Assembly: GCA_025558075.1 (NCBI GenBank)
Contig: JAHLKF010000024.1
Coordinates: forward strand, 1-64,000
Direction of reading: 5' to 3'
Length of the DNA stretch: 64,000 bases
DNA from: Gaertneriomyces semiglobifer
Taxonomy: Eukaryota; Chytridiomycota; Chytridiomycetes; Spizellomycetales; Spizellomycetaceae
Shown here: positions 1 through 21,599 of the stretch, one piece after another
How positions within the stretch are numbered: the stretch's first letter is position 1
Layout: every line of letters starts with the position of its first letter
Notes under the pieces: model-generated
Database searches by the model: none
What the model was told of the DNA's origin: nothing
What the model saw: the letters and a program-made list of their open reading frames with translations, nothing else
Program-made: the position numbers and the translations under genes

Positions 1-310
1 TCTCTGTGACTACTTGCTTTGCAGAAACAGCACCCTTGATAATCCTCCAGAGAGGAGTGCCATTGAAGATCAATTTATTCACATTACAATATGTCACATT
101 TTCAACCAACGACTTTACAATCAGACGATATGTGTTGAATGCTTTGGTGTTTTTCGGAACTGGTACATTGTTGGTTTGTGTCGCTTCCGTTCCCCATATC
201 ATTGTTGATGACATGATATTCGTAAATGTAGTGCCATCATCGTTTGATGCAACCAAAGCGAAATCCTTTATAAATCTTGATAGTGTAGAACATGAAATGT
301 CGAACGATGT
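1..310 (-). pseudogene. C-terminal continuation of the viral fibre gene, cut by the window edge
   Basis: The minus-strand frame that stops at 311-313 (TGA) stays open after the stop to position 1. It encodes about 103 residues that continue the preceding protein plausibly. The segment contains KDFALVASNDDGTTF followed by a beta-rich stretch with LIVKSL, which resembles the second half of an F5/8 type C (discoidin-like) fold as found at the tips of phage and algal-virus fibres. The first half of that fold lies at the end of the 311-2911 segment. I therefore read the stop at 311 as a disabling mutation, not as the natural end. The true C-terminus is to the left of the window. Confidence 0.55.
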
Positions 311-2911
311 TCACACAATAGGAGCAGGCAATGAAAGTTGAAGCCATTCTCCATTCACAGGAACAGAGTCTACAAGGGTCGTTATTCCTCCTACATACTC
401 GTAAGGAGCAGTGGCACTATATGAGTTAATCAAACAGTACCATGGACCAGACGCAAAAGCCTTCCATGGACTATACGAGGTTGAGTTACTATATATTGAA
501 CTTGCAGTTGCTACATAGGTACCGTTGCCGTATGCTTGTCCTGAAACAGTCGTCGAATCCGCTGTCAAGTTTGCGGGAGGGAACGGAACCACATCTGACA
601 AAGTTCCAACTGAAAGCCGTTCAGAGACATCAACAGCACCATGTTCATCTACAATGATGCCTTTTCCCCTTTGAGATAAAAATCTGAGGGCACCGCTGTA
701 GTTCATGATGGTCGCTGTATTTCCCCCTCCAAAATCAGCACGTGCCTGCGCATTGATGTTTATGTAGAGACCTGTCCCTCCACCTGCCCTCATCTGCAAT
801 GCAGTACAAGAACTTGAGCCTGTGGATGAATTATAAATGTACTGGGTATATCCCCCATTAACGTTCCGTGTGAGATTCAAAGTACCTCCTAAATTGAGGT
901 TCCCTGTTGCGGTCAAGGAATCTATACCGGTCAAGACTGGATTCAGTGAAACCGTATTGTTGCTAAATAGCAGGTTGCTACCATAGGTCACAGATGCTGG
1001 AACATTGATTAGATCAGTTGCATAATCGACCTTGTCCTTGTATGCAAGAGCCTTGAGATTGCTTTTGACCTCGAAGCCGCTGAGATCTGATCCTAAACTA
1101 ATAGTGTTTCCTGTCTTTACCAAACCGGCTCTGACGGAAAGATAAGACAATGCGTCAACATACCCCTTTGTTGTTAGGTGTCCTGCCGCGGTAGGATTTG
1201 GTGTCGTAATAGGAAGGTCCGAAGTCACATATCCAGCGGTGTCGATAGAAAGACCTTTCGCATTCATACTGTGTAATTTGAGTGGACCACTGAAATTGGC
1301 AAGCGTTCCTACATTCGGATAGTATGAATGTGTCGAACTCCACAAGAACAAGTTGAGTCCGGATGCGGGTCTGCCATTTTCGAGTCGCAAATATGTCCGA
1401 GCAGACGTATCGGAAGACGTATTTCGGAGAGAATGTACAATGTCTCCATTCAAATTGGATGTTGCAGTAATGGTACCACTTATACTCAAGTTGTTCAAGG
1501 TGCCCAAGGTTGTGATCTGAGAGCCGTTTATTGACAGGGTATTTCCTGTCTTTGTCAGCCCCGCTCCGGCAGTGAGATACGCAAGGCTGTCAACGTAAGT
1601 CTTGGTGGTCAAATCCGTCGGTTTATTTAGAATATCTGTTCCATTCCAATCCACTGTATTCTTTGTCGATAAAGACCCTAAAGTAGGACGAGAGGTCACC
1701 TCTGTCCAGGCAATGCTGTTCTTAGTAGCCAATGAACCCAAAGTTGGGCGTCCGGTCAAATCACTATACGCAAGAGTGTCCTTGAATGCAAGAGCCTTTA
1801 ATGAACTTGTCTTGGCAAAGGTCGAGAGATCCTCACTTAGCGACAATGTATTCCCGTCTTTCACAAGTCCTTGTGAGACATTGATGTAATTACAACTCTC
1901 TACATAGGGAAGAATGTACTTCTCATATGCCTCATAGACCATGGCGATATTCGGCACGGTAGTTGGATGCTCAAAGAGGATTCCTCCTTGTTGAATGTAT
2001 CCGCTCTGAAGGTGCCTGTCATGAGTCAATATCGCTGTTGAAATACGATCATCATCGGAACCACGCAAGATAATATCAATGTGTCCTTTTTCAGTAACAG
2101 GCACACCATGTTCATCCAATTCAATCACAGATCTTTCTATTCCATCTTCAATAATTTCTAACTGCAGTTCCTCACTCCATCTTCGCCCCCATGAATCAAC
2201 AAACCAAGTGTTTTCTCCCTTATCATCACATCCTTTGAAAATTGGAGGCAGTCCATTCAGACATGGAAGCAAGTCATTCCCATCTGTGCCTCCAATCCGA
2301 CCCGTATTTTGAAGATCTACAGGATCGATAGGTGGTAAAATAGGGTTGTCGGGTGCTTGAGCCAATCCTGATGACGATTCTCCAACGGATCCGCCCCCAT
2401 TCAAACCGCCCCCACCACCCCCACCTTCCTCATTTTTATACGTATCTTTCAAAGTACCTCCTCCTCCGCCTTTGTCGGTTGGATTTACAGGAGCAGTTGG
2501 TTTTTCCGCCATCAATGGAGCACTGGTGTTGGTAATCGTCACAATTCCAGTAACGGGATCTTGAGCCGCGATTACACCGATACCGATAACTCCACGGACA
2601 ACAGGCATGGCTTGGATAGCAGCGACTGTTGATGATAATCCCGTCACTTCTCCTGCTATTCCAGTGACAATACCTTGGAGACTTGTAACATCGCCCTTCA
2701 TCAGCGCTTGGGCTACTTGAACTCCAGTCGCCACGGTATTTACTGTATCGACAACACCAGTTAGTCCAGTTACTTCAGCCCCGAGCGAAATCAAGTCACC
2801 CTGGATCTGGTTCTTAGCCGTGTTCAACTGATTGATGTTCCCTCTGTTTGTGGTAATATCTTTCGAGAGAAGGTCGCTCTTCAATTCTTGCTGCTGGACT
2901 CGAGATTCCAC
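311..2911 (-). pseudogene. Viral fibre protein, C-terminal shaft and tip segment
   Basis: About 866 codons in the same frame as the upstream segment (2933-3640), so probably the same gene after an in-frame TGA. The apparent start is a GTG inside a heptad-like coiled coil (ESRVQQQELKSDLL), which argues against independent initiation. Order of parts: coiled coil, hydrophobic small-residue repeats (VTGLTG, VTGLSS), a glycine/proline-rich linker with runs of 5-7 glycines, a globular piece with WFVDSWGRRWSEE, then phage-like shaft repeats. The shaft repeats include ALAFKDTLAYSDLTGRP, LGSLATKN, LGSLSTKN and ALAYKDKVDYA, and three copies of a GLxKxGNT(L/I)S motif. The end (GEWLQLSLP) looks like the start of an F5/8 C-like module. 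Likely role: trimeric host-attachment fibre on the capsid. Product call is by composition and motif, not by a named family. Confidence 0.65.
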
Positions 2912-2932
2912 TGCATCAATTTTGTTATCGAG

Positions 2933-3640
2933 TCATATATCCTCATTCTTCAAAGTGTTGATCTCATTATCAGTTTCCAGTTTGTTCTGGTCAGTCTTTT
3001 CGTTAAGATCCGTCACTTTGTCATCCAGATTGTCAATTTGACTCTGTGGATTCAACACGGACACTTCATAACTGAAAGGATTCGTCTGAACAACAGTAAC
3101 ATTACTGGAACCGCTGATAACCGTTTTTCCAATGACTTGGTCGCCTTCTCTTCGAAGGCTGCCTCCATATGTCAGTGTAGAAGAAACCACATTGTCCGCA
3201 ATAGATATTCCATCTCCTGCGGTATAGGGATCGACTGTCAACTTGCCATTAACCGCCTTCACCGAAGTGCCGTCCGCGATGGTGGGTACATTCACTTTGA
3301 GTTGGTTCGACTCATTGATATTGAGTGTCGTGTCATGGTTGACCTTGATCAACTTGCGTCCATTGGCTACTTCTCCAACATCAATACCGCTTCCTGCCTG
3401 CGATTGGTATAGTTGATGGACATAACCAGCCGTTGGTAATTGCCGTGGCTCGGTGATACTGTAGTCAATGGCTTCGGCCTCAAACCTTGGTGCTGTTAAG
3501 GTCTGCAATGTTTCGTTATAAGTAAAACGGTTCGAAGAGTTGAAGCCGCTCAGCCCTGAATAGTATGGAATCTCATGCATACCTTTACTTCTTATCACCA
3601 GTCTTGAACCTGTCTGCTGAAAGTCGTCCGATATAGACAA
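2933..3640 (-). pseudogene. Viral fibre protein, middle segment
   Basis: About 235 codons between two in-frame stops (TAA at 3641-3643, TGA at 2933-2935). The first available start is TTG directly after the upstream stop, and the frame matches both neighbours exactly, so this is best seen as the middle of one large gene. It encodes beta-rich repeats (RLVIRSKGMHEIPYYSG; AGDGISIADNVVSS; LRREGDQVIGKTVIS) and ends in a predicted coiled coil (LDDKVTDLNEKTDQNKLETD). The coiled coil continues without a register break after the TGA into the next segment. This matches the alternation of beta-structured and helical shaft found in viral fibres. Alternative: a separate protein expressed by readthrough. 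Confidence 0.6.
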
Positions 3641-4354
3641 TTACACCAATGTGCCGTTGCCGATATACTCCTCCATGTCTCCTGGTAAGTCCGGGATATC
3701 TATCCAGTCGCCCACTCCAGGGATGCTCTCGTCCATCGCAGAGTATACTGAAATGGCCCCGATTCCTTTCGACAATTCTTTTTGATCAACACCTAGTTTG
3801 CCATCCTTTACAACCAATGGAGAGTCAATATTCAGACGCACCACGCCATCAACCTCTTGAAGAGGGGTCTCGAAGTTCTTACCGATAGATTTTAGTTTTC
3901 CTTCGCTATCTATAGTACTAGTAGTTGCGTCCGTCATCAATGACAACCCATGTTCCGAAGTATAGAACGGCGCGTCGTAATGCAGCCCAACTACAGTCTC
4001 TTCAGCCTGTTTATCGATCCACAGAGGTGCCTCAGCTATAAGCGGCGGATTCTTTGATTGTAGATCATTCTCTGGACCAATCTCAAAGTCCCTACTCGAA
4101 TACTTTAGGGAAACGTTTGCGGTCTCGTCTTCAACAGTTGAAGAAATGGGTGCTTCGCTTGTTATCGCGTTAATTTCGAGTGGACCATTCTTATTTTCCA
4201 ATTCCACGACTCGAGCAGTGTGGAAACCTTCAAGATTTACATTCTCGCCTTGGGCAGAGAGGCCATCTCCTGAAACAAGTGCACTTACTAGATTTGTGTT
4301 TTGAAGCGTCCTTAGACCGCTTGCCGTTCTGGAATTTAATCCTGCCCCACTCAT
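3641..4354 (-). pseudogene. Viral fibre protein, N-terminal segment
   Basis: 237 codons from an ATG at 4354 (minus strand), preceded by an AT-rich region with AAATATAGC about 50 bases upstream, so this is the credible start of the fibre gene. The N-terminus is rich in Ser, Gly, Asn and Leu (SGAGLNSRTASGLRTL), as is common for fibre regions that dock to a capsid vertex. It continues with repeats that have paired small loops (LVSGDGLSAQGENVNL; PLEINAITSEAPISSTVEDE; PLVVKDGKLGVDQKELSKG). The frame ends at TAA (3641-3643) and stays open immediately after it. No known enzymatic domain is visible. As written it could produce a 237-residue truncated protein. Confidence 0.6.
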
Positions 4355-4423
4355 GTTTATGTAGAAGGCTCTTCTTCACATAACCAATGCTATATTTTTT
4401 GTTGTAATTGTGAACATCGAATG

Positions 4424-4506
4424 CTACCTTATGCTCCCGGAATATGCTGCTGGAGTATGCTCCTGGAGTATGCTACCTTATGCTCCCGGAGTATGCTCCC
4501 AGAGAA
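4424..4506. repeat. CTCC-GGAG palindromic repeat cluster 1
   Basis: At least four imperfect copies of a TGCTCCNGGAGTATGC unit just upstream of the response-regulator start (4540). Each core CTCC-N-GGAG can pair with itself. Related clusters occur at 9868-9932, 15208-15285, 17190-17270 and 21457-21499. This copy has more C for A substitutions (CTCCCGGAG) than the others, so it is the most diverged. Confidence 0.8.
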
Positions 4507-4539
4507 TTGTTATCCAATTATTTTTCTCCTCTTGAACAA

Positions 4540-5214
4540 ATGGAAGCCAGACGTCTTGATAATATCTTTAAACAACGCTATGAAGTCGCCGAGAGAAAGC
4601 GGTTAGACTTGGAAAAGCGTCTGGCTGCTCTAGAACAATACGTTTTACTTAGCACAAAAGAACAAGAACCGAATGTCGTTGATCAAGACATTCTTGATGA
4701 ACTAGAGAATGTTATCGACACACTGACTACTATCTATGATAAGTTGAAAGGCAACCCGAGTGACATCCATGAGGACTTGGAGCCGCCGATTGAAGCAACA
4801 CAGGAGCCCCTCGAGAAAACACTGGACGGGAAGATATTAAATATCCTTCTAGTTGAAGATTCCAAAATGTTGCAAGAGATCTTTAAAAGATGGTGGCAGA
4901 AAAAGGGCCACAATGTGTTTGTCGCCTCAAACGGGCAGGAGGCCGTTGAGGCGGTCAAAACGAGAAACTTCTCTATCATTTTTCTGGATATCGAAATGCC
5001 AATCAAAGATGGTTTAACTACCGCTCGAGAGATCCGCGCGTACGAAATAGAAAAAGGTTCGATAACATCTGTTCCTATAATAGCCGTCTCAGGATACACA
5101 CAAAAACAATATAAGGAAAAAGCACTCGAAAGCGGCTGCAACGCCTTTATTTCAAAAGACCAAGGCTATCAGTTCAATGACATTTACAAGATTGTTCTAG
5201 ACTATGGCGGCTAA
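4540..5214 (+). CDS. Response-regulator receiver (REC) domain protein
   Basis: 224 residues starting at ATG 4540; an upstream in-frame ATG at 4444 would translate the palindromic repeats, so I prefer 4540. Residues 1-40 form a charged helix or coiled coil, 41-95 an acidic linker, and 98-222 a complete CheY-like receiver domain. The canonical residues are present: acidic pair E106-D107, phosphoacceptor D150 in FLDIEMP, S184 in VSGYT, and K206 in ISKD. There is no DNA-binding output domain or kinase. Receiver domains take a phosphate from a histidine kinase or phosphotransfer protein; fungi have hybrid kinases that could supply it. It lies between the fibre gene and the replication module and shares the palindromic repeat with other viral genes, so I assign it to the virus. 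Its role there (interfering with host signalling, or a phospho-switch) is unknown. Confidence 0.85.
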   Translation: MEARRLDNIFKQRYEVAERKRLDLEKRLAALEQYVLLSTKEQEPNVVDQDILDELENVIDTLTTIYDKLKGNPSDIHEDLEPPIEATQEPLEKTLDGKILNILLVEDSKMLQEIFKRWWQKKGHNVFVASNGQEAVEAVKTRNFSIIFLDIEMPIKDGLTTAREIRAYEIEKGSITSVPIIAVSGYTQKQYKEKALESGCNAFISKDQGYQFNDIYKIVLDYGG

Positions 5215-5234
5215 AGCCGCATCCGTCCGCTTGT

Positions 5235-5456
5235 CTATTCTCCTGTCAATTTGTCTTCCAAAATGCGATTGTTTGCCTCGAAAACTTCACTACAATGCTT
5301 ACATCCCTTGACGGTGTCCAACATAAACAGTCTAAAATTCTCCAAGTGATCCCGATACTCCTCGAGAACCTTCATGTGCTCATCCACAACTATACGACAT
5401 AGGTCTAGGGCGTATTGCCGGGGCACTGTCGCTGATGATTCTGCCGTCCTCTCCAT
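5235..5456 (-). CDS. Small viral protein with a CxxC pair, unknown function
   Basis: 73 residues from ATG at 5456, convergent with the receiver-domain gene and separated from it by 20 bases. The sequence is helical (ALDLCRIVVDEHMKVLEEY, then FRLFMLDTVKG) followed by a single CKHC pair and a helical tail. The compact spacing and lack of any competing frame suggest a real gene. I do not recognise a family. The N-terminal ATG lies in a short AT-rich stretch that would be its promoter region. Confidence 0.45.
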   Translation of the reverse strand: MERTAESSATVPRQYALDLCRIVVDEHMKVLEEYRDHLENFRLFMLDTVKGCKHCSEVFEANNRILEDKLTGE

Positions 5457-5577
5457 AATTATCTCTTGCTACTTGATGAGGAAAACGCTGCTAATAGTTT
5501 CAGCACGTCCTTATATAGGCGCTTCATGTTATGTAATTAGTTACATCTTATTACTTGGTTTTTTCATCGGTCTAGTT
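5457..5577. promoter_or_regulatory. Divergent intergenic region before repeat copy A
   Basis: About 120 bases of AT-rich sequence upstream of the minus-strand small gene, with no open frame of its own. It leads into repeat copy A. Nothing more specific is visible. Confidence 0.25.
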
Positions 5578-5820
5578 TTGTAGCCTTGTAGCCCTTGTAG
5601 CGGCTGATTTCCTTCTCTTTCAATTTCAATTTTCAAAAACGATTTTCAAAATTGAAATTTTAAAACAAGTATATAAAAATACTCTGAAATAGGGGCTACA
5701 AGGGCTACACTTCTTCTCTTCATGTTTTTGTCTATGTATTCGTATTAAATGTTTTCTTTACTCTCTCCATGTATGGAGTGTAGCCACGAAAAGGCTACAA
5801 CAGGCTACAGAGGGCTACAG
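5578..5820 (-). repeat. Long repeat module, copy A (origin-like), inverted relative to B and C
   Basis: A roughly 243 bp module. One end has tandem GTAGCC(C)TT units, the middle is strongly AT-rich with self-complementary tracts (TTTTCAAAATTGAAATTT), and then come GGGGCTACAAGGGCTACA and a second cluster of GGCTACA units at 5779-5820. Its reverse complement matches 9422-9664 along most of its length, including CGTGG(C/T)TACACTCCAT. The arrangement (short iterated sites around an easily melted core) resembles an iteron-type replication origin or a terminal inverted repeat. Confidence 0.8.
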
Positions 5821-5913
5821 TTTAGATGCAAATTTTGCATCGATTTGATCCAAAAAAAAACATATATAAACAGTAGAGCCCCGGTAGTAAATATATATAT
5901 CATCAGAAAAGAC

Positions 5914-8402
5914 ATGACTCAATCAGAACTCTTTCGCTTGGCCAAGAAAATCAAACGCCACCATGCTTCCTTCACCCCTATTCCTGCTTATGTGGAGATG
6001 AAGCGCCCTATCGGAAAATGGAGCGGGATTGCTTATCAATTTGAAAGGGACTTTCAAAAACGAGAGCAACTTGAACCCGATTGCAATCTTGGCCTATTGG
6101 TGGCGAATGATTACATTATTATTGATGTTGATGCAAAACCCCCTGCTTCCAAAAGCAATAACAAGCGATACTTGGAAAACACTGGTGTGGCCGATTTTGC
6201 TGCCCTTGTTGCCTTAAATGAACCTCTTCCACCAACGTTGACAGTCAAACGCCTTCCGGTGGTAAACACTACTATTTTGCGTTTACTGGCCGTGAGGGAG
6301 AACAAACAATTAAGAACTGGACCGCTTGCATGACATATAATGAACAACTTATCGCTGTCGATGTCCGTGTTAAGGGTGGTTATGTAATGATACCTCCTTC
6401 TAAAAAGGGAGTCAAACGCTACTTGTGGGAGACCAATGATGACTATAGAACTCCAATGGCGCCCTTGCCCCAATGGATTATGAATAACATTCATGTCACT
6501 CTGCAGAAACAACCTCGTCATTTCGAAGCACAAGAATTTACTTGCAATCCCAGTGTTAACGAAGATATATCTGATGCTGATGTTGCTCTCTTCAAGGATA
6601 GCGAGTATTGGCAACCGTGTTTTTCAATTAAGGCTTCACCGGACCCGTATGGACGGTACATTGTAACGGCATCGCAACCTTACAATTGCGGTATCTGTGA
6701 ACGCGAACATGTCAATAACACCAACCATCCTTTCCTAGTAAGAAACAATGGTACACTCAGATTTGTATGCCGCCCTGGTAAAGAATTCAACAGAATGATC
6801 GACCGTGACTATTTAAAGATGTGGAACGATTTCAAGCCCGCGTATATCAAGAATCTGGTCACTAATGGAGACATCACTAATCGTGCTGTGTCTGCAAGCC
6901 TTCAACAAGAATTAAAGGATAACATGTTTCCGACCTTGAAACCAAACATGTGGTTGATGTTTGATGAGGAAACGGGTATCTGGAGAGAAGAACACAAAGA
7001 TGTGCTTTTACACCCTCTTTTTGACAAGTATGTCAAACACTTGAATAACTTATCCTTTATCTGCTCTGGACTCAAGTCAGACGACGATGATATCTGGAAT
7101 CAACACCTCAGCACTTGCAAATCGTTGATGTATTCATGTTCCATGGTTTCAAAGAAAAAGGATCACAGCCAGGCACTATTTGAATTGATTCGAGATAATC
7201 GCAAAGAAAGGTTTTTCAACAAGAGTAAGCATTTGCTCCATTGTTCCAATGACGTTGTGGATCTTAACACCGGTGACTTTAAAAAGGCAAAGGTGACTGA
7301 TTATTCTACCATGTCTACCAATATCCCCTATCTGGAGTACGATAAGCACCCACAGAAGAAGAGAGACCTCGTTGATAAGTTCCTAGACGACTTTACTGTA
7401 GGCGATCAAGAGGTCAAACACTATCTGCTCAAGGTGCTTGCATCCGTTATCAGTGGTAACAATCTCGATCAACAGTTTTACATGTTACATGGAGAGGGGG
7501 CTAATGCAAAATCCTTGCTCATTCGCATGCTCAAGGCTGCGTTAGGCAACTATGCTGCTCCTATTCCTTCTGCTCAAGTCACTAAGCCTTCAATGGACGC
7601 ACAAAGCGCATCCCCTGCATTGGTGGCACTTCAATACATTCGGGCAGCATGTTTGACGGATCTTAACGACCGTGTCCTCTTCCCAGAATTTCTCAAAATG
7701 TTGGCAGGAGGTGACTCCATTGCTGGAAGGCAATTATTTCAAGAACAAAAGACGTTGGACTTGTGGTGTAAGATCATCATTGCAGTGAACGATCTACCAG
7801 AGATTAGGGATAGGACTCTAGGGTTCTGGCGGAAACTTGTTCTCATTCCATGCAGAGCATCTTTCAGTATGAATCCGGATCCCAGCAAGCCTGAACAGAA
7901 ACAAATTGTTGAGGGCTTTGAGGAACACCTTCTCCAATGTGCTGATACCTTTCTTGCTTTATTAGTCAAGGTATATCTTACCGCTTACAAGACGGAAGGT
8001 GTCAAGGACAACGCAAAGCCAGAATGCATCAAGCGACTTGTTCTTGAGTATCAAGAATCTCAGGATATTCCTTTAGCGTTCATGAATACTATGATCGCTG
8101 AAGGGACTGCCGATGCTGTTTTGACAACGAAGGCACTAGATACAGCGTTTAGTGAATACCTTCGCGACAAGGGTGTCACTAAAAACGTTGCACTTGTACG
8201 GCATTTGTATGAAAAAATCGATAAGAAGTATCCACCTTCAAACAGTTGTAGACAGATTAGATTGGGTGAGAAAAACATCAGAGGTTGGAGAGGTATCTAT
8301 ATCCGGCCAGATTATGAAGGGATTGAAGAGGAAGAAGATCATGTAGCAGAAGAGGTAGATCGTGAGTTCCTAAGGGGCCAGTGGGTGTCTCGGGTATTAT
8401 AA
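5914..8402 (+). pseudogene. Primase (AEP-like) plus D5-type SF3 helicase, frameshifted
   Basis: Replication protein of the virus. The first frame (5914-6333, ATG at 5914) has an archaeo-eukaryotic primase-like start: NLGLLVANDYIIIDVD supplies acidic metal ligands. The second frame (6330-8402) continues the protein. Between them the reading frame slips near 6246-6250: the expected primase motif (Ser-Gly-Gly-Lys-His-Tyr-Tyr) reads through in the second frame at 6255-6280 while the first frame runs on into unrelated residues. One missing base in a short A run would explain it. Then come a cysteine cluster (CGICEREH, 6687-6710), a D5_N-like region, Walker A GEGANAKS (about 7490-7513), Walker B-like ACLTDLND, and the sensor VNDLPEIRD. 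Intact, it would be about 830 residues, normal for virophage or PLV primase-helicases. It sits between inverted repeats A and B. Confidence 0.85.
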
Positions 8403-8721: not shown

Positions 8722-8767
8722 ACGGATATCGAATATCAAATATAGAAGAGTAGTAAATAAACATACT

Positions 8768-9932: not shown

Positions 9933-9970
9933 ACAATCTTTTTCTGCGACCATCTTACCCCTTTTCACAA

Positions 9971-13065: not shown

Positions 13066-13112
13066 TATGTGAGATTCAAGTATGGTTTAAGAACTTGTAT
13101 ATAAAAAAAAAT

Positions 13113-13685
13113 TCATCCGAATATGCCCCCATAATCATCAGTTTCATTATTTGAATATTCTGATGTGTCGAAATTCACAAATGTATTCTTAAGCGCTCTG
13201 GCACATGGTTCATTAGAAGCAACTTTCTTTGGCTGTTGTTTCGGTTTGTTCCTTGCCTTTTCCGTTACTTCTCTCCAGTAAGTCTCGTCTGCCTTTTTCT
13301 TTTCCAATGCCAGCCGTTTCTTCTCTTCACGAAGAGCGCGTTTCTTTTCCCGCTCCTCTTTAAGTATCTTTTTGGCATCTTCAACACGCTTCTTTTCTGC
13401 TGCTATCTGACGCTCCTCAGCCCTCTTCTGTTGCATGAAGCAGAGTTGTTCTGCACGTGCCTTTTGAGCCTTCTCGATGGCTTTCTGCTGCTTTTCAGAG
13501 AGAACCTTTCGTGGCTTACTTTTTGCTGGTTCAGGTGCAGGTGGTGCAGGTTCAGGTGTAGGCTGTGGTGCAGGCCTTTGGCCAGCATCTTGAACCGGTT
13601 GTTAAACAGGCTGTTGTTCAACCACAGGAACCTGTACAATTTCAGGTTCCGCACTCGAAATATGTTCGACTTCTTCTGCTGACAT
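13113..13685 (-). pseudogene. Proline- and lysine/glutamate-rich coiled-coil viral protein with in-frame stop
   Basis: An ATG at 13685 opens a frame that meets TAA at 13602-13604 and then stays open to 13113, for about 190 codons in all. The first 27 codons are acidic and Val/Gln-rich. After the stop comes a Pro/Ala/Glu linker (PAPQPTPEPAPPAPEP), then a long charged helix from KVLSEKQQKAIEKAQKARAE through AEKKRVEDAKKILKEEREKK to ALEKKKADETYWREV, and a tail with DTSEYSNNETDDYGG. The residues flanking the stop are Gln-Pro-Val repeats, so the TAA likely replaced a CAA. Between the capsid and penton genes, it may be a scaffold or internal capsid protein. A downstream ATG at 13436 could give a 107-residue truncated product. 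Confidence 0.6.
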
Positions 13686-13714
13686 GTTGGTTTATATGAT
13701 AGTTTATAAAATTT

Positions 13715-14443
13715 TCAATCCAAATTGTCGTTGATATCGTCAGAAATGACGAAACGCACAGTTAATGGACTATTTAAGGACAATTGGTTGCCGGATATAC
13801 TGTTGATAAGGTGGAACTCTATCTTGGAAATGACATCGTCGACTGGAAGATACGGACCTGCGCTATTATCAAAGACAACAACGTCTCCAAAGTTATCGGG
13901 TATCATGGTTGCCACCACCAATTGCTCTCCCTCATTAAAGTCGCTGAGGAACGGCACACCGCGTACAGAAATGTTGGATGTCAAGAGAATGGGATATGAT
14001 CCTGATAGATCTACAGGATTCTTCATTGTTATCGACTTGTAGTAGCCGGAATCCTGAGTTCTAGAGGAACCCATCAAGCGATATGCAGATGTTCCTTTTC
14101 CGGCGTGAAGAATTTTGAATGTCTTGGTGCCAGTGGTCGATATGGTTAGCCTTCTTGTTACGTAGTTGTAGGTCACATCATATGTTTGTGATCCAGCCGA
14201 GTTCAGAGCATCTCGAATAGCGGCTGGAAAGTTTGATATCATGTAGTTACCTGCAGGCAAGGAGGCAATCTTTGGAGTAGTGTCCGATTCTTCAATAATT
14301 GCAACCTTGTTATTGGTTTCATTGATGAGATCATAGTCTTGAATGAAGGAAACACTTAGGATCTTGAGATACTCGACCTTCCTTGGAGGTATGGCAAAGG
14401 ATCTTGATTTCAGGCTGCAGTATGTGTATTCGTAGAGCATCAC
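13715..14443 (-). CDS. Penton-like minor capsid protein
   Basis: 242 residues from ATG 14443. The layout matches minor capsid (penton) proteins of Polinton-like viruses and virophages: a short N-terminal arm, a single beta-barrel-like body, and a strand signature LPAGNYMISNFPAAIRDALN followed by VTYNYVTRRLTI and a Gly-Ser turn (YRLMGSSRTQDSG). These proteins form pentamers at capsid vertices, where fibres attach. The gene lies next to the packaging ATPase (divergent, 41 bases between starts) and near the capsid gene, as in other members. No stops or frameshifts. The family is inferred from pattern and context, so moderate confidence. Confidence 0.65.
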   Translation of the reverse strand: MMLYEYTYCSLKSRSFAIPPRKVEYLKILSVSFIQDYDLINETNNKVAIIEESDTTPKIASLPAGNYMISNFPAAIRDALNSAGSQTYDVTYNYVTRRLTISTTGTKTFKILHAGKGTSAYRLMGSSRTQDSGYYKSITMKNPVDLSGSYPILLTSNISVRGVPFLSDFNEGEQLVVATMIPDNFGDVVVFDNSAGPYLPVDDVISKIEFHLINSISGNQLSLNSPLTVRFVISDDINDNLD

Positions 14444-14484
14444 TTGATTTCTTCTATACTTAATGGTAATAAGGAGAGAAAAAA

Positions 14485-15198
14485 ATGAAGAACTTCAAGC
14501 CCAAAGCAATATATCCCAAGAATGGGAGCAAAGAAGATCCTCGAGTGCCCGTGCAATTAGCAAGTCCACCGTTATGTACTACATTAGTCACTCCACGGAA
14601 ATCAGGGAAATCTGCCTTAGTGTGTGGATTGATAGATGATGTTTATGCTAAAGTGTTCGACGAGGTTATCATCATGTCGGATACTGTTCTGTTTGACAAA
14701 TCCATACAAGAACTTGCACGAATAACGAAGCACAAGCACATCTACTTTACGGACGACGTTTCCAATGATTCCATCAAGGAAATCGTGAAGAAACAGAAAG
14801 CGACAGGATCAAAGAAAAGCGTTCTCCTCTACATAGACGATGCAGCGGACTCTGCGCGTTCAAAGGATCTCAGTCGAGAGTTGGATCGTTTATACACAAA
14901 GGCACGACACTTTAACATTTCGATAATTGTATGTTGTCAAAGTATCACGTCGCAACTCAGTCGCAAGCAAAAGAATTGCTCGACAGAATGGATTGTTTTC
15001 AATAACAATGCAGAGGACATGAAACAATTGGCCAAAGTCCTGTCAACAGCCTATGCGAATGAAAAACAAGTTCATGAGTATCTGGTTGAATGCACAAAGG
15101 AGCGATATGCATTCTGCTACATCAACTTGGCAAAGTCGACCGCGAAGGAGATTTATCGATATTCAAGTAATGAAGACGGCTTTCAGGATTATTTCTAA
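14485..15198 (+). CDS. A32-type genome-packaging ATPase
   Basis: 237 residues from ATG 14485, just after an AAGGAG-containing leader. The P-loop is at residues 36-43 (TPRKSGKS; the usual first glycine is replaced by Thr), and a Walker B-like VLLYIDDAA lies at about 113-121. A conserved Gln in the sensor region follows (IIVCCQSITSQLS, about 150). The C-terminal part (QLAKVLSTAYANEKQ; ERYAFCYINL) matches the helix-strand end of A32/FtsK-HerA packaging ATPases. The protein translocates viral DNA into capsids. It is the right length for PLV and virophage homologues (about 230-260 residues). Divergent from the penton gene, forming the morphogenesis block. Intact. Confidence 0.85.
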   Translation: MKNFKPKAIYPKNGSKEDPRVPVQLASPPLCTTLVTPRKSGKSALVCGLIDDVYAKVFDEVIIMSDTVLFDKSIQELARITKHKHIYFTDDVSNDSIKEIVKKQKATGSKKSVLLYIDDAADSARSKDLSRELDRLYTKARHFNISIIVCCQSITSQLSRKQKNCSTEWIVFNNNAEDMKQLAKVLSTAYANEKQVHEYLVECTKERYAFCYINLAKSTAKEIYRYSSNEDGFQDYF

Positions 15199-15207
15199 TT
15201 GTTGACG

Positions 15208-15285
15208 ACATGCTCCAGGAGTATGCTCCAGGAGTATGAGGAGTTTTGCTCCAGGAGCATGTTCCCTGCTCATACTTCGGAAACG
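15208..15285. repeat. CTCCAGGAG palindromic repeat cluster 3
   Basis: Three copies of GCTCCAGGAG followed by GAGTATGAGG and TTCCCTGCTCATAC, in the gap between the ATPase stop (15198) and the minus-strand gene stop (15297). This copy is between convergent 3' ends, so the repeat is not only a 5' leader element. Confidence 0.85.
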
Positions 15286-15296
15286 AAGGTCTTAAC

Positions 15297-15614
15297 TCAA
15301 GTCGCCTGGTTGCGAAGATTCCCTTCAACCTTGTCGATAAACTTGTCGCCTTCTTGTTGAAGTTCGGAGAGTTTTCGAACAGCGGAGCCGCTCTTCTCTG
15401 TTAGCCCTGCGGTGAACCCTCTTGCTTTCTCGTTGAAAAGGCCTGGGGAATCATTAACAGCCTTGTTCGCACCTTCGATGGCCTTTTGGGCTTTGTTCAG
15501 ACCGGACACGGCTCTTCCAGCAAAGGTCCGACCTTTTGCAAGGAAGGAGGGTGCGTTATTCCAAAAAGTCTTTAAGCGGGATTTTCCGTTGTTGATAAAC
15601 TTGGCAAATGGCAT
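15297..15614 (-). CDS. Small amphipathic viral protein (possible internal capsid or membrane-active protein)
   Basis: 105 residues from ATG 15614. It starts MPFAKFINNGKSRLKTFWNN, has an Ala/Gly-rich helical centre (GRAVSGLNKAQKAIEGANKA) and a charged helical end (KLSELQQEGDKFIDKVEG). No long hydrophobic segment. In Polinton-like and adenovirus-like genomes a small amphipathic capsid-interior protein often lies near the capsid genes; this one could be such a protein, but I see no sequence signature that proves it. Divergent from the 436-residue-frame gene, 71 bases between starts. Confidence 0.5.
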   Translation of the reverse strand: MPFAKFINNGKSRLKTFWNNAPSFLAKGRTFAGRAVSGLNKAQKAIEGANKAVNDSPGLFNEKARGFTAGLTEKSGSAVRKLSELQQEGDKFIDKVEGNLRNQAT

Positions 15615-15685
15615 TTAGCAAAGAATAAAGGTATGCTAGTTTACTAGTAGACAAAGAGGATTTTTGTGATCTCGATAAAGTAAAC

Positions 15686-17188
15686 ATGTCTACTTACAGG
15701 GCAAATGCACTCGAGTTTGCCGGGATCAATAGAACCCAGTCAATTGCAAACGTTCAGAAACACCAAGTGGGATATGCAGTTGATTATGGCAAGTTGGATG
15801 AATTCGGCAAACCATCAGTGGTCTTTGCTTGGAACAGAAATATTCATGGAACAGACCTTGCCACAAAGAAGAACTATGTAGCGCCTGAACAGGTTTCATC
15901 GATCTCGTCCAAAGAGGCGCTGCAAATATCAACGGCTAAACATCTCACACAAGCCTACAAGGATGGCCTTGAGTATGTTGAAGCGGAAAAGGATTACCGA
16001 GCCAAACAAGAATACCTCGATAGGATTACTCCAGGACGATCAGGTGGACCAGCGAAGAACGGTGTTTCCATTGGAACCAACACCTCAACGTCAGGTCTTC
16101 CAGTGCCAGATGGTAATGGTGTGGTCGCACATTACGCTCCCCAGGTGACTGCGATGACAGGACTTATGTTTTCGGCTCCAGTTGGTGGTAAGGAGGCAAT
16201 GCCCCAGCCAACAGGAGTTGGATCAAGTGGTGGTCTTGTGATTGCAACCAAGGAGACAGAGGTGCGAAAAGATCCGACTACAGGTCTTGGAGTGGTAAAC
16301 AGCGCGACAGGATCGACGACTCCGCTTGATCCGATGGTAATTTCTCCACAGGAACCGCCGATGCCAGGGCTTTTTCCCAACTTCCCAAGTCCGACGTCTT
16401 CCACCAGTTCAAAGGAACCTGATGTGTCAGAGACACCTCAACAACGCATCAGCCCCGACGACCTTGTCATTGCTTCCACTGTAAGGAACCCTCAAGAAGT
16501 TGAGGATATTCTCGAGTCGAATATAATCGATAATCGCTTTGTTCCGACTCCCGCTATGACACCATTCCGTTTTAGAGGCCGTCAAAGCGAGTCTTTAGCA
16601 GGTCAGAAGCGCAAAGGAACTCCGCTGCCCCGTATGGATAAGAAGCAACAGAGAACAGATGTACCGCTTGATGGAATGCAGCCATTGGATGAGATTGGTA
16701 TAATAACAAGTGTTACTGTTCCAGGTGGAACAGGAACGCGTGTTCCTCATAACGCGGCGGTGTCGACAACGGTCATACCCGAACCATTGAAACCGGGTGT
16801 GAAGCGTCCGGCATTCCGACAACCAGAGGAACGGCAAATCAAGAAAAGAACTCGACTCAACGATGCGGATGAAGATATAATTCGGCTCGAGCCGGTAGAG
16901 GTGGTGGAACAGGCACAGAAGCGAAGGAAAGCGACACGCAATGTCAATTATGCCTCTGCTCCTGGTGCTCCACACCCTTTCGATGAGGAGCCATGAGAAA
17001 GAACGTCAGGTGCACCAAGGAATCTTCGGCCTATTGCGGCGCTTAGAGGGAAGAAGGACATAGATTATGCTATGGAACACCCTGATCCTTTAATATCCGA
17101 GGTTGTCATTCCGACTGTGCAACTGCGTCGCAGGAAGGCAGGGCCTTCCTCTACAGAACCTGCTCGAAAGAAACAGAGAATTATCTAA
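15686..17188 (+). pseudogene. Large proline/serine-rich viral protein with in-frame stop
   Basis: ATG 15686 opens 436 codons, ending at TGA 16994-16996. The same frame continues for 63 codons to TAA 17186-17188 and encodes a basic tail (PTVQLRRRKAG ... ARKKQRII) of similar composition, so the TGA looks like a mutation of CGA. Residues 1-130 appear folded (YRANALEFAGINRTQ; VVFAWNRNIHGTDLATK; LTQAYKDGLEYVEAEKDYR). From about 140 onward the protein is low-complexity, rich in Pro, Ser, Thr and Gly, with several basic patches (RQIKKRTRL; QAQKRRKATR). This may be a tegument- or core-like DNA-binding virion protein. Family not recognised. Its position in the late block, before the integrase, supports a structural role. 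Confidence 0.6.
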
Positions 17189-17189
17189 G

Positions 17190-17270
17190 AGATAACTTGC
17201 TCCAGGAGTATGAGCAAGGAAGATGCTCCAGGAGTACCAGGAGTATGAGCAGGGAAGATGCTCCAGGAGT
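17190..17270. repeat. CTCCAGGAG palindromic repeat cluster 4
   Basis: Copies of GCTCCAGGAGTATGAGCA and GGGAAGATGCTCCAGGAGT, alternating, ending about 34 bases before the integrase ATG. The unit AGCAGGGAAGATGCTCCAGG is repeated almost exactly within the cluster. Confidence 0.88.
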
Positions 17271-17277
17271 GCTATCG

Positions 17278-17285
17278 TTTTATAC
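17278..17285 (+). promoter_or_regulatory. TATA-like box before the integrase gene
   Basis: TTTTATAC lies 19 bases before ATG 17304, immediately after the palindromic repeat. Similar boxes occur before other viral genes. Confidence 0.3.
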
Positions 17286-17303
17286 TGGATGTTTCTTAAC
17301 AAA

Positions 17304-18539
17304 ATGGATGAACCGCCAAAGAACTATTTTCGAGAAGTGTCTCCAGAAGATGCTGAACGACTAAAAGAATTATATTATCGAGACAAAGCGATAATGGGAC
17401 GGGATAGGTTGTACCATCTATTCAAGAGCAAATACCCAGCCAGTGAGATTTCTCAAAGAGCGCTGCTGGCCTGGCTCAAAAAGCAGGAGATCCATCAAAA
17501 GATCACGAGACCCATGGTGTCAAAGGGCTCTATCTGTCCCATTCTTTCAAAGACCCCTGGAAGTCTCCAAATAGATACCGTGAACTTGTCAGCCGCAAGT
17601 TACAATGGGTTCTCGTATATCGTCAACACCGTTGACATCTTAACGAAGCGGTTGTATTCCAAAGCGCTTAGGGCAAACACACAGGCCAATGTCAAAGACT
17701 TTTTACAAGAACTTGTCGATGACGGTGTTGAAATCAAGCACGCCGTCTCAGATAATGGGGTAGAATTCCAAGGAATCGTACAACAATGGGCTCGGACTTA
17801 TGGAATGCAATGGCGTTTTTCAAACCCGGGTTCGCCGCAAACAAACGGGATAGTTGAAAGGATGAATGGGACCGTGAAGCGAATGTTGTATGCAGCAATG
17901 CGGCTCGATAGAAACTGGGTTGGTGCGCTGCCCCAAATTGTGGAGAACATTAACGGAACAGTTTCTTTTGGAGCGGGACGCAAACTTCTCACACCCAATC
18001 AGATGGAGGCAAATGCAGAAGAGGCGTATGCTGCTCAAGTGGCACAACGCCGAAAGGGTCGTGGTGTGAAACTTTTGCCAAGATTCAAAGTCGGAGATCA
18101 AGTGCGGCTGCTTATACAAGAGAACACCGACATACGAAGAAGAGCAAAACGAGGATATTTCGGAGATGATGTATACACCATTGAATCGGTGGTACCTAGT
18201 TCTCACCCCAACTACATGGACAGTTACAAGTTATCGGGGCAACAAGGACTCTTTGCCGCTTATCGACTCAGGTTACTGCCGGAGGGTACTGTAACTACCA
18301 CACCAGCAAATCCAACGGTCGACGACGATGTCAGCGATGAAGACACTGGCAGTGAAGGAGATTATAAGGGGGAAACCATCCTCGATAAACGCACTCGAAG
18401 ACGCCGAAGAGGACAGCCAGCCATTACAGAGTATCTTGTTCTATGGCGCGGTTATCCTCGATCTCAAGCATCATGGGAACCCTTGGAGAATTTACAAAAC
18501 GCTAGAGAAGCGATTTACGAGTTTGAAAATACTCATTAA
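17304..18539 (+). CDS. Retroviral-type DDE integrase with C-terminal chromodomain
   Basis: 411 residues from ATG 17304 (an upstream in-frame start at 17223 would translate repeats). Residues 1-75 are a helical N-terminal region. The rve catalytic core has D91 (LQIDTVN), D150 (VSDNG) and E185 (NGIVERMNG), with 34 residues between the last two. Residues near 250-330 look like a beta-barrel DNA-binding module (KVGDQVRLLI). The C-terminus is a chromodomain: ITEYLVLWRGYP then ASWEPLENLQNAREAI. Integrases of this type insert Polinton/Maverick elements and LTR retrotransposons; chromodomains steer insertion toward histone marks. The absence of reverse transcriptase nearby and the surrounding capsid genes show it belongs to the virus. 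Intact frame. Confidence 0.92.
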   Translation: MDEPPKNYFREVSPEDAERLKELYYRDKAIMGRDRLYHLFKSKYPASEISQRALLAWLKKQEIHQKITRPMVSKGSICPILSKTPGSLQIDTVNLSAASYNGFSYIVNTVDILTKRLYSKALRANTQANVKDFLQELVDDGVEIKHAVSDNGVEFQGIVQQWARTYGMQWRFSNPGSPQTNGIVERMNGTVKRMLYAAMRLDRNWVGALPQIVENINGTVSFGAGRKLLTPNQMEANAEEAYAAQVAQRRKGRGVKLLPRFKVGDQVRLLIQENTDIRRRAKRGYFGDDVYTIESVVPSSHPNYMDSYKLSGQQGLFAAYRLRLLPEGTVTTTPANPTVDDDVSDEDTGSEGDYKGETILDKRTRRRRRGQPAITEYLVLWRGYPRSQASWEPLENLQNAREAIYEFENTH

Positions 18540-18605
18540 GATATAAGTGCAAATGAATTGTATTAATTTATCGCCATGATAATTACATGCGATTAGGTTT
18601 AATGA

Positions 18606-19022
18606 TCATTTTCCCTCTACAAAGTGGTCTAGTTCAACACGTGCTTTCTCCAACATATGGTAAATGAGATCAATCTCAAAGCGTCCTTGATTGTCGTTCT
18701 CTTCGTCATCATCATCGGAGTAATGAATAAAACGAAACGCACCTAACGCGTGTTGTGCCGCCGAGAGATGAGAATCGACAAGATGAACCAATTCGTTAAC
18801 TTGTTCATTCGACGATTTGGACAGTTGCCGACGTGCATTTTTCACCATATACTGGACGAGATGTACCTGCAAGTATGGTCGGTCATCATACTCATTCTGC
18901 ATGAAAGCCAATGCATTTAGCGCAGTCAACGCCTGTTCGACCGCAGACAGATGATTGTCGGCAATGCGCATGATTCTCTTGACTTGTTCGTTGGTTTGCT
19001 CGTTGACTTGTTCGTTCGACAT
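18606..19022 (-). CDS. Small viral protein with internal duplication
   Basis: 138 residues from ATG 19022; a TATA-like GTATAAAAG lies 45-53 bases upstream. After an N-terminal Asn/Glu/Gln repeat (NEQVNEQTNEQ) it contains two related units of about 55 residues. The first has DNHLSAVEQALTALNALAF ... MVKNARRQL; the second has DSHLSAAQHALGAFRFIHY ... MLEKARVEL. Each unit is two helices around an acidic loop. This looks like an ancient tandem duplication of a helical-hairpin domain. Function unknown. It is convergent with the integrase gene and divergent from the recombinase gene. Confidence 0.6.
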   Translation of the reverse strand: MSNEQVNEQTNEQVKRIMRIADNHLSAVEQALTALNALAFMQNEYDDRPYLQVHLVQYMVKNARRQLSKSSNEQVNELVHLVDSHLSAAQHALGAFRFIHYSDDDDEENDNQGRFEIDLIYHMLEKARVELDHFVEGK

Positions 19023-19066
19023 GGTTGGTTGGTTAAGGAAAACCCTGGGGTCGGTCGGCGCTGATG

Positions 19067-19075
19067 CTTTTATAC
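19067..19075 (-). promoter_or_regulatory. TATA-like box for the duplicated-helix gene
   Basis: On the minus strand GTATAAAAG lies about 45 bases before ATG 19022. Confidence 0.4.
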
Positions 19076-19105
19076 TTTTTCGAAGAACACTGCATCGATG
19101 CAAGG

Positions 19106-19207
19106 TTCCGATATTGAAAATTTTGCCTTTTTAATATCGGATTCCATCGAAAACAATATGATACAACCTTTGACTTTTTCAATATCGGATTCCATCGAAA
19201 ACAATAA
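19106..19207. repeat. TTTTYAATATCGGATTCCATCGAAAA repeats in a divergent promoter
   Basis: Two direct copies (19127-19160 and 19174-19207), 47 bases apart, share over 25 bases including AATATCGGATTCCATCGAAA. A third, inverted half copy (TTCCGATATTGAAAA) is at 19106-19120. They lie between two divergent genes and could be operator sites. Confidence 0.75.
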
Positions 19208-19250
19208 TGAAACGATGATAATGACATCCGTAATAATTTTGAACGCCGAA

Positions 19251-19259
19251 TATATAAAG
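19251..19259 (+). promoter_or_regulatory. TATA box for the tyrosine recombinase gene
   Basis: TATATAAAG lies 52 bases before ATG 19312, a normal distance for a fungal or viral TATA element, and just downstream of the operator-like repeats. Confidence 0.45.
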
Positions 19260-19311
19260 GCCGTCTAAAGGATTGGACGTTAAGCATAAGTAGATAGGAA
19301 ATAATGCCAAG

Positions 19312-20958
19312 ATGGACCCAACCGTTATCATGACCATCCTTGAGAAAGGCTCGGATGAGCAAGTATTGATGCTCAAGGAACTCCATAACGCGCAACTGAG
19401 CAAGCGGAACGATGAGATGTTTATAGGGATTGCGAATCATCTCGCAGGTACCGCCCATCTCTCTTCCTTTGTGGAACTGTACACACAATTGGCGTTGGCT
19501 GTTCCTGAGGCTACTCCTGCGACTTCCGAAGCAGTTTCTATTAGTCCAGAAGAGGCTCCTGAAGAAACCTTCGAAGATGAAGATGAAGATGTACCCGACG
19601 AGGAGGTCATCGAGCCCCAAGCCATAGAAGTTGAGGATATGAACGTAATTCTCCGCACTCGACACACCACAGCGGTAAAAGACGGAGGTGCGATCAAGGA
19701 CCACCGTCAGGATCCGGATTGGAAAAATGCAGCATTGCAATATGCTAATCGTCTCGAAAGTCGTATGAATGCTCGTATAGAAATGAGAGAACTGCATAAC
19801 ATGAAAGACATTGTGTCCACAGTTATGCAGTCGACTGACAATACGGCAAGCGCTGTTTTGACCGCTTATTCCGTTCTAATGCAGAAACTCAATAATGATG
19901 AACGTGTAAAATACTTTGGATCGTTGGAAAAGTATTCTAATTGCTTGCAGGTGTTGAACCAGGCGCAGAAGGCAGTAAAGAACATTCTTGATCTGAAACG
20001 CGATGAACAGAAAATCTCTGAGCGTGAGAAACCGATCCTGGAAAACTGGGATTGGCCTCGTCTTGAAAACAAGGTGAAGGAATATCTTGACCAGAGCCCT
20101 GCTCCCGATTCTATCGAGAATGTGGAACAGTTCAGATTTGTAAGGCGCTTATGTCTTCTGCGTCTTAATGTTCTTGATCATCCGCCAAGACGTCTCGAGT
20201 ATTTTTTATTAAAAAGAGTGCCAGGAGGAGAAGAAGACAACTACTATGAGGGCAACACGATAACTTTGAACGATTACAAGACCTCTTCCACAATGGGACA
20301 GTATTCGTTCGAGATTTCAGATGAAACACGCATTCTGCTTGACAAGATGTATGACTATTGGGAAAGAACTAGAAATTTTTCTGAGAACATGTACATCTTT
20401 GGATTGGAGAATCAAGTGTGTTCTGACAGTTTCTGCACAAAAGTTCTCCAAGCCACATTTTATGCCGCATGCAAGGAAAAGATATCTTGCATCATCCTGA
20501 GACAGTTGATGGTTGATCATCTAGCAAAAACAGGTGCTATCCGATATACTACGGACCGGAAAGAAAAGGCTCGACAAATGACACACTCTCCTAAAATGCA
20601 ACAGACTGTATATTTGAAGCGAGATGTTGGTTGAATGCTTGAAGACGAGGAACCTGCGGAAGAGGACTTATCAGTTGCTGGTCCTTCAGTGCCTCCGCCT
20701 ACGCCAAAGAAGCGTAAAATCCCACTTGCGACAGAGCCTAAGAAGGCAAAGAACCGTGCTCGTAAGACGTATTGTTCCGAAGAACAGCAAGAGGAGTTGA
20801 AGAGATTGATTAACAACTATGAAGCGACTGAAACATTCAAACAAAAGAAGACCATTCCTTGGACACAGTTGAGAAACGAAAGTGAAATCTTGAAAGACGT
20901 GAAACCTGGAACGCTAGAAGCATGGGGAAGAAGAATACGCAAGAATAGACAAGCGTAG
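19312..20958 (+). pseudogene. Tyrosine recombinase/integrase with C-terminal extension, in-frame stop
   Basis: Site-specific recombinase of the viral type. Residues 1-160 are an acidic N-terminal region. From about 200 a core-binding-like helical part (YFGSLEKYSNCLQVLNQAQK) leads to the catalytic domain. Recognisable residues: R293/R294 (DHPPRRLEY), K323 (LNDYKTSS), R397 (IILRQLMVDHL), H425 (MTHSPKMQQ) and the nucleophile Y434. A TGA at 20632-20634 comes only six residues after the tyrosine, then ATG and 107 further codons in the same frame. These encode a Pro-rich, basic NLS-like segment (PKKRKIPL) and a helical, possibly Myb-like end (KPGTLEAWGRRIRK). Either the TGA is a mutation of a CGA and one protein of about 548 residues was encoded, or two adjacent genes share a frame. 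All catalytic residues precede the stop, so a truncated enzyme could be active. Confidence 0.82.
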
Positions 20959-21088
20959 GGGAGAGGGGTAGTTTATTAATAGTAGGAGGCTGAATGTGAG
21001 ATGTACTGTACTTCATTGATAGTAATAAGCATTGACTGAGAACATGTTGCGCGATTGAGAATTGTCAGTTGGCATTTCAATTTTTGTA
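20959..21088. other. Short intergenic region before repeat copy C
   Basis: About 130 AT-rich bases after the recombinase frame, with no gene seen. Confidence 0.3.
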
Positions 21089-21305
21089 TTGTAGCCTTGT
21101 GTAGTCCAGTGTAGCCATTGGGTGGCTACACTCGATACATGTAGAGAAGGAAGGAACATTTGAATAGGGATAAGAAGAGAAAAACATGAAGAGAAGAAGT
21201 GTAGCCGTTGTAGCCCTATATTTCAAGGTATTTTATATGTTTTGTTTTAAAATTTGAAATTGAAAGGGAAGGAAACCGGGTGCTACAAGGGCTACAAGGC
21301 TACAA
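21089..21305 (+). repeat. Long repeat module, copy C (origin-like, near right end of viral element)
   Basis: Same order and orientation as copy B: TTGTAGCCTTGTGTAG, then GTGGCTACACTCGATACATGTAG, then GTGTAGCCGTTGTAGCCC at about 21199-21216, an AT-rich core with TTAAAATTTGAAATTGAAAG, ending GTGCTACAAGGGCTACAAGG. It is about 25 bases shorter than A and B in the region between the clusters. With the inverted copy A it could form terminal inverted repeats of a 15.7 kb unit. Confidence 0.8.
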
Positions 21306-21599
21306 GTATAGATATATACGACGGGCCAGTTGAAATAGATGGATAAACGCGCGCGTTTGGTCGATAAGGTGAATGTGTTGAATACGCGGCAAGCATAGGG
21401 AATTATCGATAATGAAAAGGTATATATAAGGAGATGGGGTACGCGGTTGGGTGCATTGCTCCAGGAGCATGAGCAGGGAAGACGCTCCAGGAGTGCGACA
21501 AGTGTCAAAGACTTCACAGCGGCGCACTCGATAAATTATGGAGCGAAGTGGAGTCAATGGGAAAGTGACGCTCAGTAAACTGTGGTAAGGACCGCAGTG
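21306..21599. other. Viral right flank
   Basis: No gene is supported. There is a TATATATAAGG box near 21420 with no following open frame of useful length, then palindromic repeat cluster 5. A promoter whose gene has been lost, or the viral terminus, would both fit. Confidence 0.35.
21457..21499. repeat. CTCCAGGAG palindromic repeat cluster 5
   Basis: GCTCCAGGAGCATGAGCAGG followed by GAAGACGCTCCAGGAGT, nearly identical to cluster 4. It is the last recognisable viral sequence before host-like DNA. Confidence 0.85.

Follow-up and report, generated by a model that had tools for sequence, protein, structure and literature searches.

The 64-kb stretch of the Gaertneriomyces semiglobifer genome analysed here (the window) opens contig C24 (C24:1-64000, where C1 to C66 denote the contigs of this assembly), and its first 21785 bases hold an integrated Polinton-like virus (PLV). 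The host belongs to the order Spizellomycetales, its genome comprises 20.86 Mb in 66 contigs, and the window element is one member of a population of PLV lineages within it. Support for an endogenous PLV that is part of a fungal chromosome comes from a double-jelly-roll major capsid protein (MCP), a Pfam match to A32 packaging ATPases, a single-copy right flank and two related copies that lie inside longer contigs with terminal inverted repeats (TIRs) and target duplications. We consider it probable that this is a decayed integrated PLV close to the Spizellomyces punctatus group, that a retrovirus-type (rve) integrase inserts the linear DNA, that the palindrome at its end is a hairpin end renewed each round and that replication cassettes have been exchanged between lineages.

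The boundaries of the element (1..21785) were determined by alignment to a related copy on contig C21. The window holds the right ~21.8 kb of a ~24.2-kb element, and the left ~2.4 kb, as estimated from the same comparison, is absent where the contig start cuts the element. The right end lies at 21785 and not at 21500, as the first-pass annotation had it, and the 500 bases to its right (host flank, 21787..22286) occur as a single copy in the genome. The main copies of the same lineage, lineage A, are those on C24 (the window), C21, C45 and C6. The C21 copy (C21:208585-232812, 24,228 bp) has CCGTG on both sides and the C6 copy (C6:678337-702586, 24,250 bp) is flanked by a duplication of ACGG. 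A second element on C21 (22,990 bp) and an element on C38 (23,425 bp) have the target duplications AACGG and CTCGT respectively. When the flanks on C21 are joined, an open frame runs through the insertion point of the lineage A copy and through a second insertion 136 bp away, and this target is uninterrupted in paralogues at C7, C43, C11, C4 and C47.

The PLV gene set proposed in the first-pass annotation, comprising an MCP, an A32 ATPase, a primase-helicase, an rve integrase and a response-regulator receiver (REC) protein, was found in the places it had given. The predicted MCP (11830..13065, minus strand) adopted a double-jelly-roll fold in the fold test; its profile gave zero matches against PDB sequences. 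The A32-type packaging ATPase (14485..15198, plus strand) matched Pox_A32 in Pfam (PF04665, 1.8e-8). A double-jelly-roll MCP, an A32/FtsK-type ATPase and TIRs, which are hallmarks of PLVs, are all present. A candidate penton-like minor capsid protein (13715..14443, minus strand) was assigned by position and conservation, as it adjoins the MCP and ATPase genes and is conserved in several lineages; a Pfam search with it gave no match.

The window holds one of the two TIRs of its element (20965..21785), with the partner beyond the contig start. It is 93.75% identical to the inverted left TIR of the C21 copy, in which the TIRs are 845 bp with 838 positions identical. The element ends in a palindrome (21737..21785) with 24-bp arms, one central base and the outer motif TGTCACAGTGCA, preceded by a second hairpin-forming inverted repeat (21686..21733), and the terminal 186 bases fold chiefly into two hairpins (z -13). 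A motif-free palindrome scan of the window and 23 larger loci returned 11 palindromes with arms of at least 24 bp, all of which carry TGTCACAGT[GC]CA, with five different interiors. The whole genome was then searched with the 12-bp outer arms fixed and a free interior of 18-48 bases, using the reversed pattern as control, which gave 41 palindrome sites (20 distinct sequences) and 0 for the control. Pairing of the interior is complete in 30/41 sites, and 34/41 have no more than one position unpaired; a match to MCP, ATPase, rve or recombinase lies no further than 25 kb away at 30 of the 41 sites. Interiors differ among lineage A, lineage B, the C38/C31/C11 type, the C24/C38/C49 type and the C6 and C21 types, so that common descent alone fails to explain their pairing. 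In lineage A, as in the C31/C38/C11 type, each of the two centre bases is found.

These observations are consistent with a mechanism in which linear DNA would be inserted by an rve integrase recognising TGTCACAGTSCA, the outer 12-bp motif with which elements of several lineages end. The palindrome at the terminus would be a hairpin end, and nicking of the inner motif copy, followed by fill-in through the hairpin, would renew an exact palindrome each round. Fill-in of this kind would account both for interiors that vary from lineage to lineage but are perfectly paired and for A-lineage elements having no need of a protein-primed polymerase; none of the 14 polymerase B matches (PF03175) fell within C24:1-21785, C21:208585-232812 or C6:678337-702586. 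Hairpin replication is our inference from integrated copies in the genome sequence.

Possible traces of hairpin breakage were observed at two elements. The lineage B element on C35 has inverted flanks, two copies of one 1,943-bp segment of host DNA that are 100% identical (C35:89655-91629 and 115206-117148). The upstream target half is found just to the left and ends in its 5-bp duplication and a further 30 bases, which match one half of the B palindrome and continue four bases beyond its centre; this is the broken half palindrome expected if the hairpin tip is the break point. The element at C31:95887-120214, whose right end is formed by the palindrome at C31:120158, likewise has inverted flanks of 1,113 bp that are 98.7% identical (C31:94774-95886 and 120215-121327). 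Breakage at the hairpin tip, inverted duplication and subsequent TIR recombination with loss of one element copy could have produced both arrangements; mis-assembly could also have produced inverted flanks, most conceivably at C35.

The two integrase types reported in the first-pass annotation were both retained, on different kinds of evidence. The rve integrase with a C-terminal chromodomain (17223..18539, plus strand) is supported by Pfam (PF00665, 7e-12; PF00385, 2.2e-13) and stands alone in the window element, with no reverse transcriptase by Pfam; its true start is probably downstream of a repeat array within the open reading frame (ORF). The tyrosine-recombinase-like protein (19312..20634, plus strand), in which the catalytic part is present, is proposed from conserved residues and a structural model. 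Pfam gave no match for it, and a profile search against PDB sequences gave one chance-level match. Residues R-K-R-H-Y, to which we presumptively assign the usual catalytic roles, are aligned in six of seven sequences; the remaining sequence, a fragment, stops short of three of these residues and has Cys in place of the second of two adjacent Arg. There is no His at the usual H of the HxxR motif. The model produced Cre/Xer-like structural matches at moderate confidence (predicted local distance difference test, pLDDT, 65.7).

At 7/9 recombinase loci an rve gene lies within 15 kb, so that membership of the same element is possible by position; the locus at C21:328075 has no rve gene within 15 kb and at C6:659549 the nearest one is on the other side of a terminal palindrome. 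Lineage B and the C38 element with the CTCGT duplication carry rve and gave no recombinase match at this sensitivity. In lineage B, a 349-aa protein with no clear Pfam match follows rve (C35:104783-105832 and the B locus on C19), in the position that the recombinase has in lineage A. A resolving or accessory enzyme is the more likely role for the tyrosine recombinase, rather than that of integrator. In Gaertneriomyces sp. JEL0708 the recombinase is 99% identical and lies on a 26,275-base contig, approximately the size of one element, which makes a recent spread within the genus likely.

The replication genes of the window element lie in a cassette (5571..9674) bounded by inverted repeats, with arms at 5576-5661 and 9581-9666 (95% identical) and at 5758-5819 and 9423-9484 (84%). 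In sequence these repeats are similar to the inner portion of the TIR (21089-21312). The primase-polymerase part (Prim-Pol; 5749..6333, plus strand; PF09250, 3.9e-5) is in a frame separate from that of the D5_N/DUF5906 helicase of superfamily 3 type (6330..8402, plus strand; PF08706, 6.2e-7; DUF5906, 2.7e-4, below its cut-off). The Prim-Pol/D5 cassette is present in the window and C21 copies, and in its place the lineage A copy on C6 has a DUF5906 helicase cassette. This cassette (C6:690132-693511) is 89-92% identical to that of the lineage B element on C35 (C35:92278-95666), and both are bounded by inverted repeats, which on C6 are 80 and 85% identical. Replication cassettes thus probably move between lineages, perhaps via recombination at the flanking inverted repeats. 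A C5 cytosine DNA methylase sequence (C6:693654-695576) adjoins the exchanged cassette.

The window holds a decayed provirus, as judged from stops in the fibre-like gene, a split primase/helicase and a shortened recombinase. The three 'fibre' ORFs of the first-pass annotation (311-2911, 2933-3640 and 3641-4354) are pieces of one gene (1..4354, minus strand), a single frame broken by three in-frame stops; the label itself derives from repeats, with nothing above chance in Pfam. In five other copies this frame is stop-free over the available sequence in two and contains stops in three. In the recombinase, a stop cuts off the C-terminal part, which comparison with the C21 and C6 copies places at 20635..20958 (plus strand) and which in those copies belongs to a single 548-aa frame. 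The primase/helicase occupies two frames in the window, and the helicase with most of the primase forms one 839-aa frame in C21. The other A-lineage copies have different defects or an exchanged module.

Across the genome, 41 MCP match pieces were grouped manually into 35 MCP genes at 27 places, with identities to the window MCP in groups of 55-100% and 25-29%. Counted by eye, 19 of these genes are single, nearly full-length and stop-free matches, nine are such matches with a stop, six are split and one is partial. Lineage B, found at eight places, has two MCP genes per element (for example C19:370000-383683), of which one shares 71-77% and the other 29% identity with the window MCP. Five of its first-MCP matches have equal scores and one TAG each, and the B stretches of C19 and C47 are identical over 4,161 bases. 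At seven of the eight places (C19, C2, C30, C34, C39, C47 and C59; none at C35) there is a polymerase B match whose end is 6.8-7.0 kb away from the B palindrome. On C19, polymerase B and an A32-like ATPase belong to a Polinton-like element of its own (C19:360000-366200), left of and outside the B element. The contigs C19, C2, C34 and C47 all end 1,426 bases past the rve match inside the B element, and C19 and C2 agree in every one of their final 300 bases; this common end position may be an assembly effect. With respect to a subtelomeric position of the B copies, a search of the window and 31 further loci gave no tandem TTAGGG repeats.

Several observations weigh against the interpretation of the palindromes as regenerated hairpin ends and of rve as the integrating enzyme. 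The motif search itself fixed the 12-bp arms, which leaves the interiors alone as independent evidence, and 11/41 sites have at least one unpaired interior position, seven of them two or more. No searched PLV gene lies within 25 kb of 11/41 palindromes, and 5/35 MCP genes have no such palindrome within 25 kb. The seven that have two or more are all among the 11 that have no PLV gene nearby, and these poorly paired palindromes may be old remnants; the other four are C9:331768, C28:251328 and the B-type sites C32:85 and C43:5434 near contig starts. Flip/flop support is thin, with one of each centre base in one of four complete elements. The duplication at C6 is 4 bp and not 5 bp, and the C35 and C31:95887 elements have inverted flanks in place of duplications. 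The recombinase model is of only moderate confidence, and its top structural match is an unrelated protein. Finally, palindromic ends were seen in this one genome alone, and neither the palindrome pattern nor relatives of the element occurred in the IMG/VR viral contigs scanned.

Under the strongest rival explanation the palindromes play no part in replication and are a paired binding site for a multimeric integrase, their symmetry kept by selection on binding. This would fit the outer 12 bp common to the lineages, as for an integrase site, and the observation that palindromes track rve rather than the recombinase, lineage B having palindromes and rve with no recombinase match at the sensitivity used. 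However, selection on binding would conserve the sequence, yet interiors differ while 30/41 remain fully paired, and the hairpin tip was apparently broken at C35. We give this explanation a substantial chance, short of an even one. A more far-reaching version of the hairpin model was also considered, in which chytrid PLVs of several lineages would be hairpin-ended linear DNA viruses, one 12-bp motif would serve as both nick site and rve end, rolling-hairpin replication by the host polymerase would replace the protein-primed polymerase of Polintons, and tip breakage would have left the inverted host duplications at C35 and C31. This version is put forward tentatively, as less likely than not.

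It could also be that the elements are capsid-bearing transposons that have ceased to form particles and spread by transposition and recombination alone. In each of the four main A-lineage copies (C24, C21, C45 and C6) a gene is interrupted, a part is lacking or a module has been exchanged, and the five equal-scoring first-MCP matches of lineage B share the pattern of one stop each. The 19/35 MCP genes that are nearly full-length and stop-free, against 16 with a stop, split or partial, and the 99% identical recombinase in another Gaertneriomyces isolate argue the other way, and we regard this explanation as unlikely. Integration by the tyrosine-recombinase-like protein instead of rve, for which its catalytic residues and the Cre/Xer-like fold matches would speak, is more improbable still: 5-bp target duplications and TG...CA ends are signs of an rve-type enzyme, and the C38 element, with its CTCGT duplication, and lineage B have rve and no recombinase match. 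Contamination, or a mis-joined virus contig with no chromosomal insertion, was suggested by a window copy that touches the contig start and whose left junction is unseen. It was rejected and has hardly any probability left, since the related copies on C21 and C6 are flanked on both sides within contigs of 337 and 1,076 kb and carry target duplications, and the paralogues of the C21 target are uninterrupted.

The REC protein of the window element (4444..5214, plus strand; PF00072, 3e-22) has an uncertain start codon because this sits in a repeat array. Relatives of this stand-alone protein were found in Gaertneriomyces JEL0708 (65%) and as two longer environmental proteins, and the virus-encoded form may tap the host phosphorelay. 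The array at its start (4431..4500) consists of the palindromic motif CTCCWGGAG, of which the element has five arrays, the others being near 9864, 15213, 17200 and 21459, with spans of 4460-4468, 9864-9920, 15213-15257, 17200-17269 and 21459-21493. All 12 matches to the motif in the window lie within the element (0.48 expected), and arrays are also present in C21, C6 and C38 loci (7/32 loci). They are possibly a promoter or repressor site.

The remaining genes are a 107-aa lysine-rich protein adjoining the MCP (13113..13436, minus strand), a 109-aa protein with relatives in the C21 and C6 A-lineage copies (11179..11508, plus strand), and a 105-aa (15297..15614, minus strand) and a 436-aa protein (15686..16996, plus strand), both with relatives near capsid genes in C21, C6, C31 and C38 elements. 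Relatives of a 165-aa protein (18606..19103, minus strand) are found in the A-lineage copies on C21 and C6 as well as in one further C6 element. A cysteine-rich, zinc-finger-like protein (8690..9376, plus strand) and a protein with a C-terminal CCHC zinc knuckle (9782..10732, plus strand) were recognized by eye, with no Pfam match. Among the 19 ORFs of the element scanned with Pfam, of which the left end is missing, no protease domain was found that would indicate a maturation protease or virophage-type cysteine protease, and no chitinase. The host flank contains Ty3-like (24825-27305) and Ty1/copia-like (28319-31543) retrotransposon reading frames. The intron-rich host genes of the first-pass annotation were inspected in a single case: at 43.0-44.5 kb, an oxysterol-binding-protein gene is spread over two frames that overlap, as an intron would give.

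Among 22 relatives of the MCP, 17 bear chytrid species names, one is a MELD virus hexon and four are unnamed. The C19 copy encodes a product that agrees in every residue with a 369-aa G. semiglobifer protein. A PLV in S. punctatus and PLV genes in Allomyces macrogynus are described in the available text of PMC7805220; together with the hexon of 'Powellomyces chytrid fungus MELD virus 5', they show that the window element is not the first case in fungi. The hexon comparison, made on the hexon alone, gave 61% identity over 99% of the query. Similarity to the S. punctatus PLV group (PMC7805220, in part) lies in the chytrid host, genome integration and an MCP 63% identical to an S. punctatus protein (SPPG_02195). 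By comparison with that group as described, and not by alignment to the published element, there are here in addition terminal palindromes, two integrase types, an exchanged replication cassette and a receiver-domain protein. The same source, in its available part, reports a chitinase in 52% of the S. punctatus group and more than one MCP gene per element in the Trimcap PLV group, a likeness to lineage B in gene number.

Polintons/Mavericks share with the element the rve integrase, A32 ATPase, double-jelly-roll capsid and TIRs. The element differs from them in having no polymerase B match, no maturation protease by Pfam and duplications of 4-5 bp, compared with the usual 6 bp of Polintons (PMC12747079, in part). 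In the available text of Yutin et al. 2015 (PMC4642659), PLVs are without rve save one exception and some carry a tyrosine recombinase. Among cryptophyte PLVs, as far as the text of PMC12220804 goes, both integrase classes are known, together with short target duplications and strong host-genome expansion; in contrast, both integrases here stand alone within one element, and in this respect the first-pass annotation was justified in calling the gene mix unusual. Parvoviruses and poxviruses have hairpin ends able to fold back on themselves, whereas the capsid, gene content and integrase here are those of a PLV and hairpin replication is proposed from sequence. No PLV with terminal palindromes was found in the mostly open-access PubMed Central (PMC) literature on palindromic or hairpin ends, within its available text, and the one mention of terminal hairpins concerned giant viruses. 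Palindromic hairpin-forming ends in several lineages, the stand-alone integrase pair and the exchanged cassette were not found described in the literature searched.

DNA viruses of fungi are thinly documented. If the proposed mechanism is true, hairpin replication and retrovirus-type integration would be united in one virus, a combination not found in the literature searched. The palindromic ends, with a common outer motif and differing interiors, lead to a concrete prediction on replication without an own polymerase. With MCP genes at 27 places, several capsid lineages, a polymerase-bearing Polinton-like neighbour, exchanged cassettes and exact duplications of the target, the G. semiglobifer genome is suited to the study of how PLVs move, swap modules and invade chromosomes.

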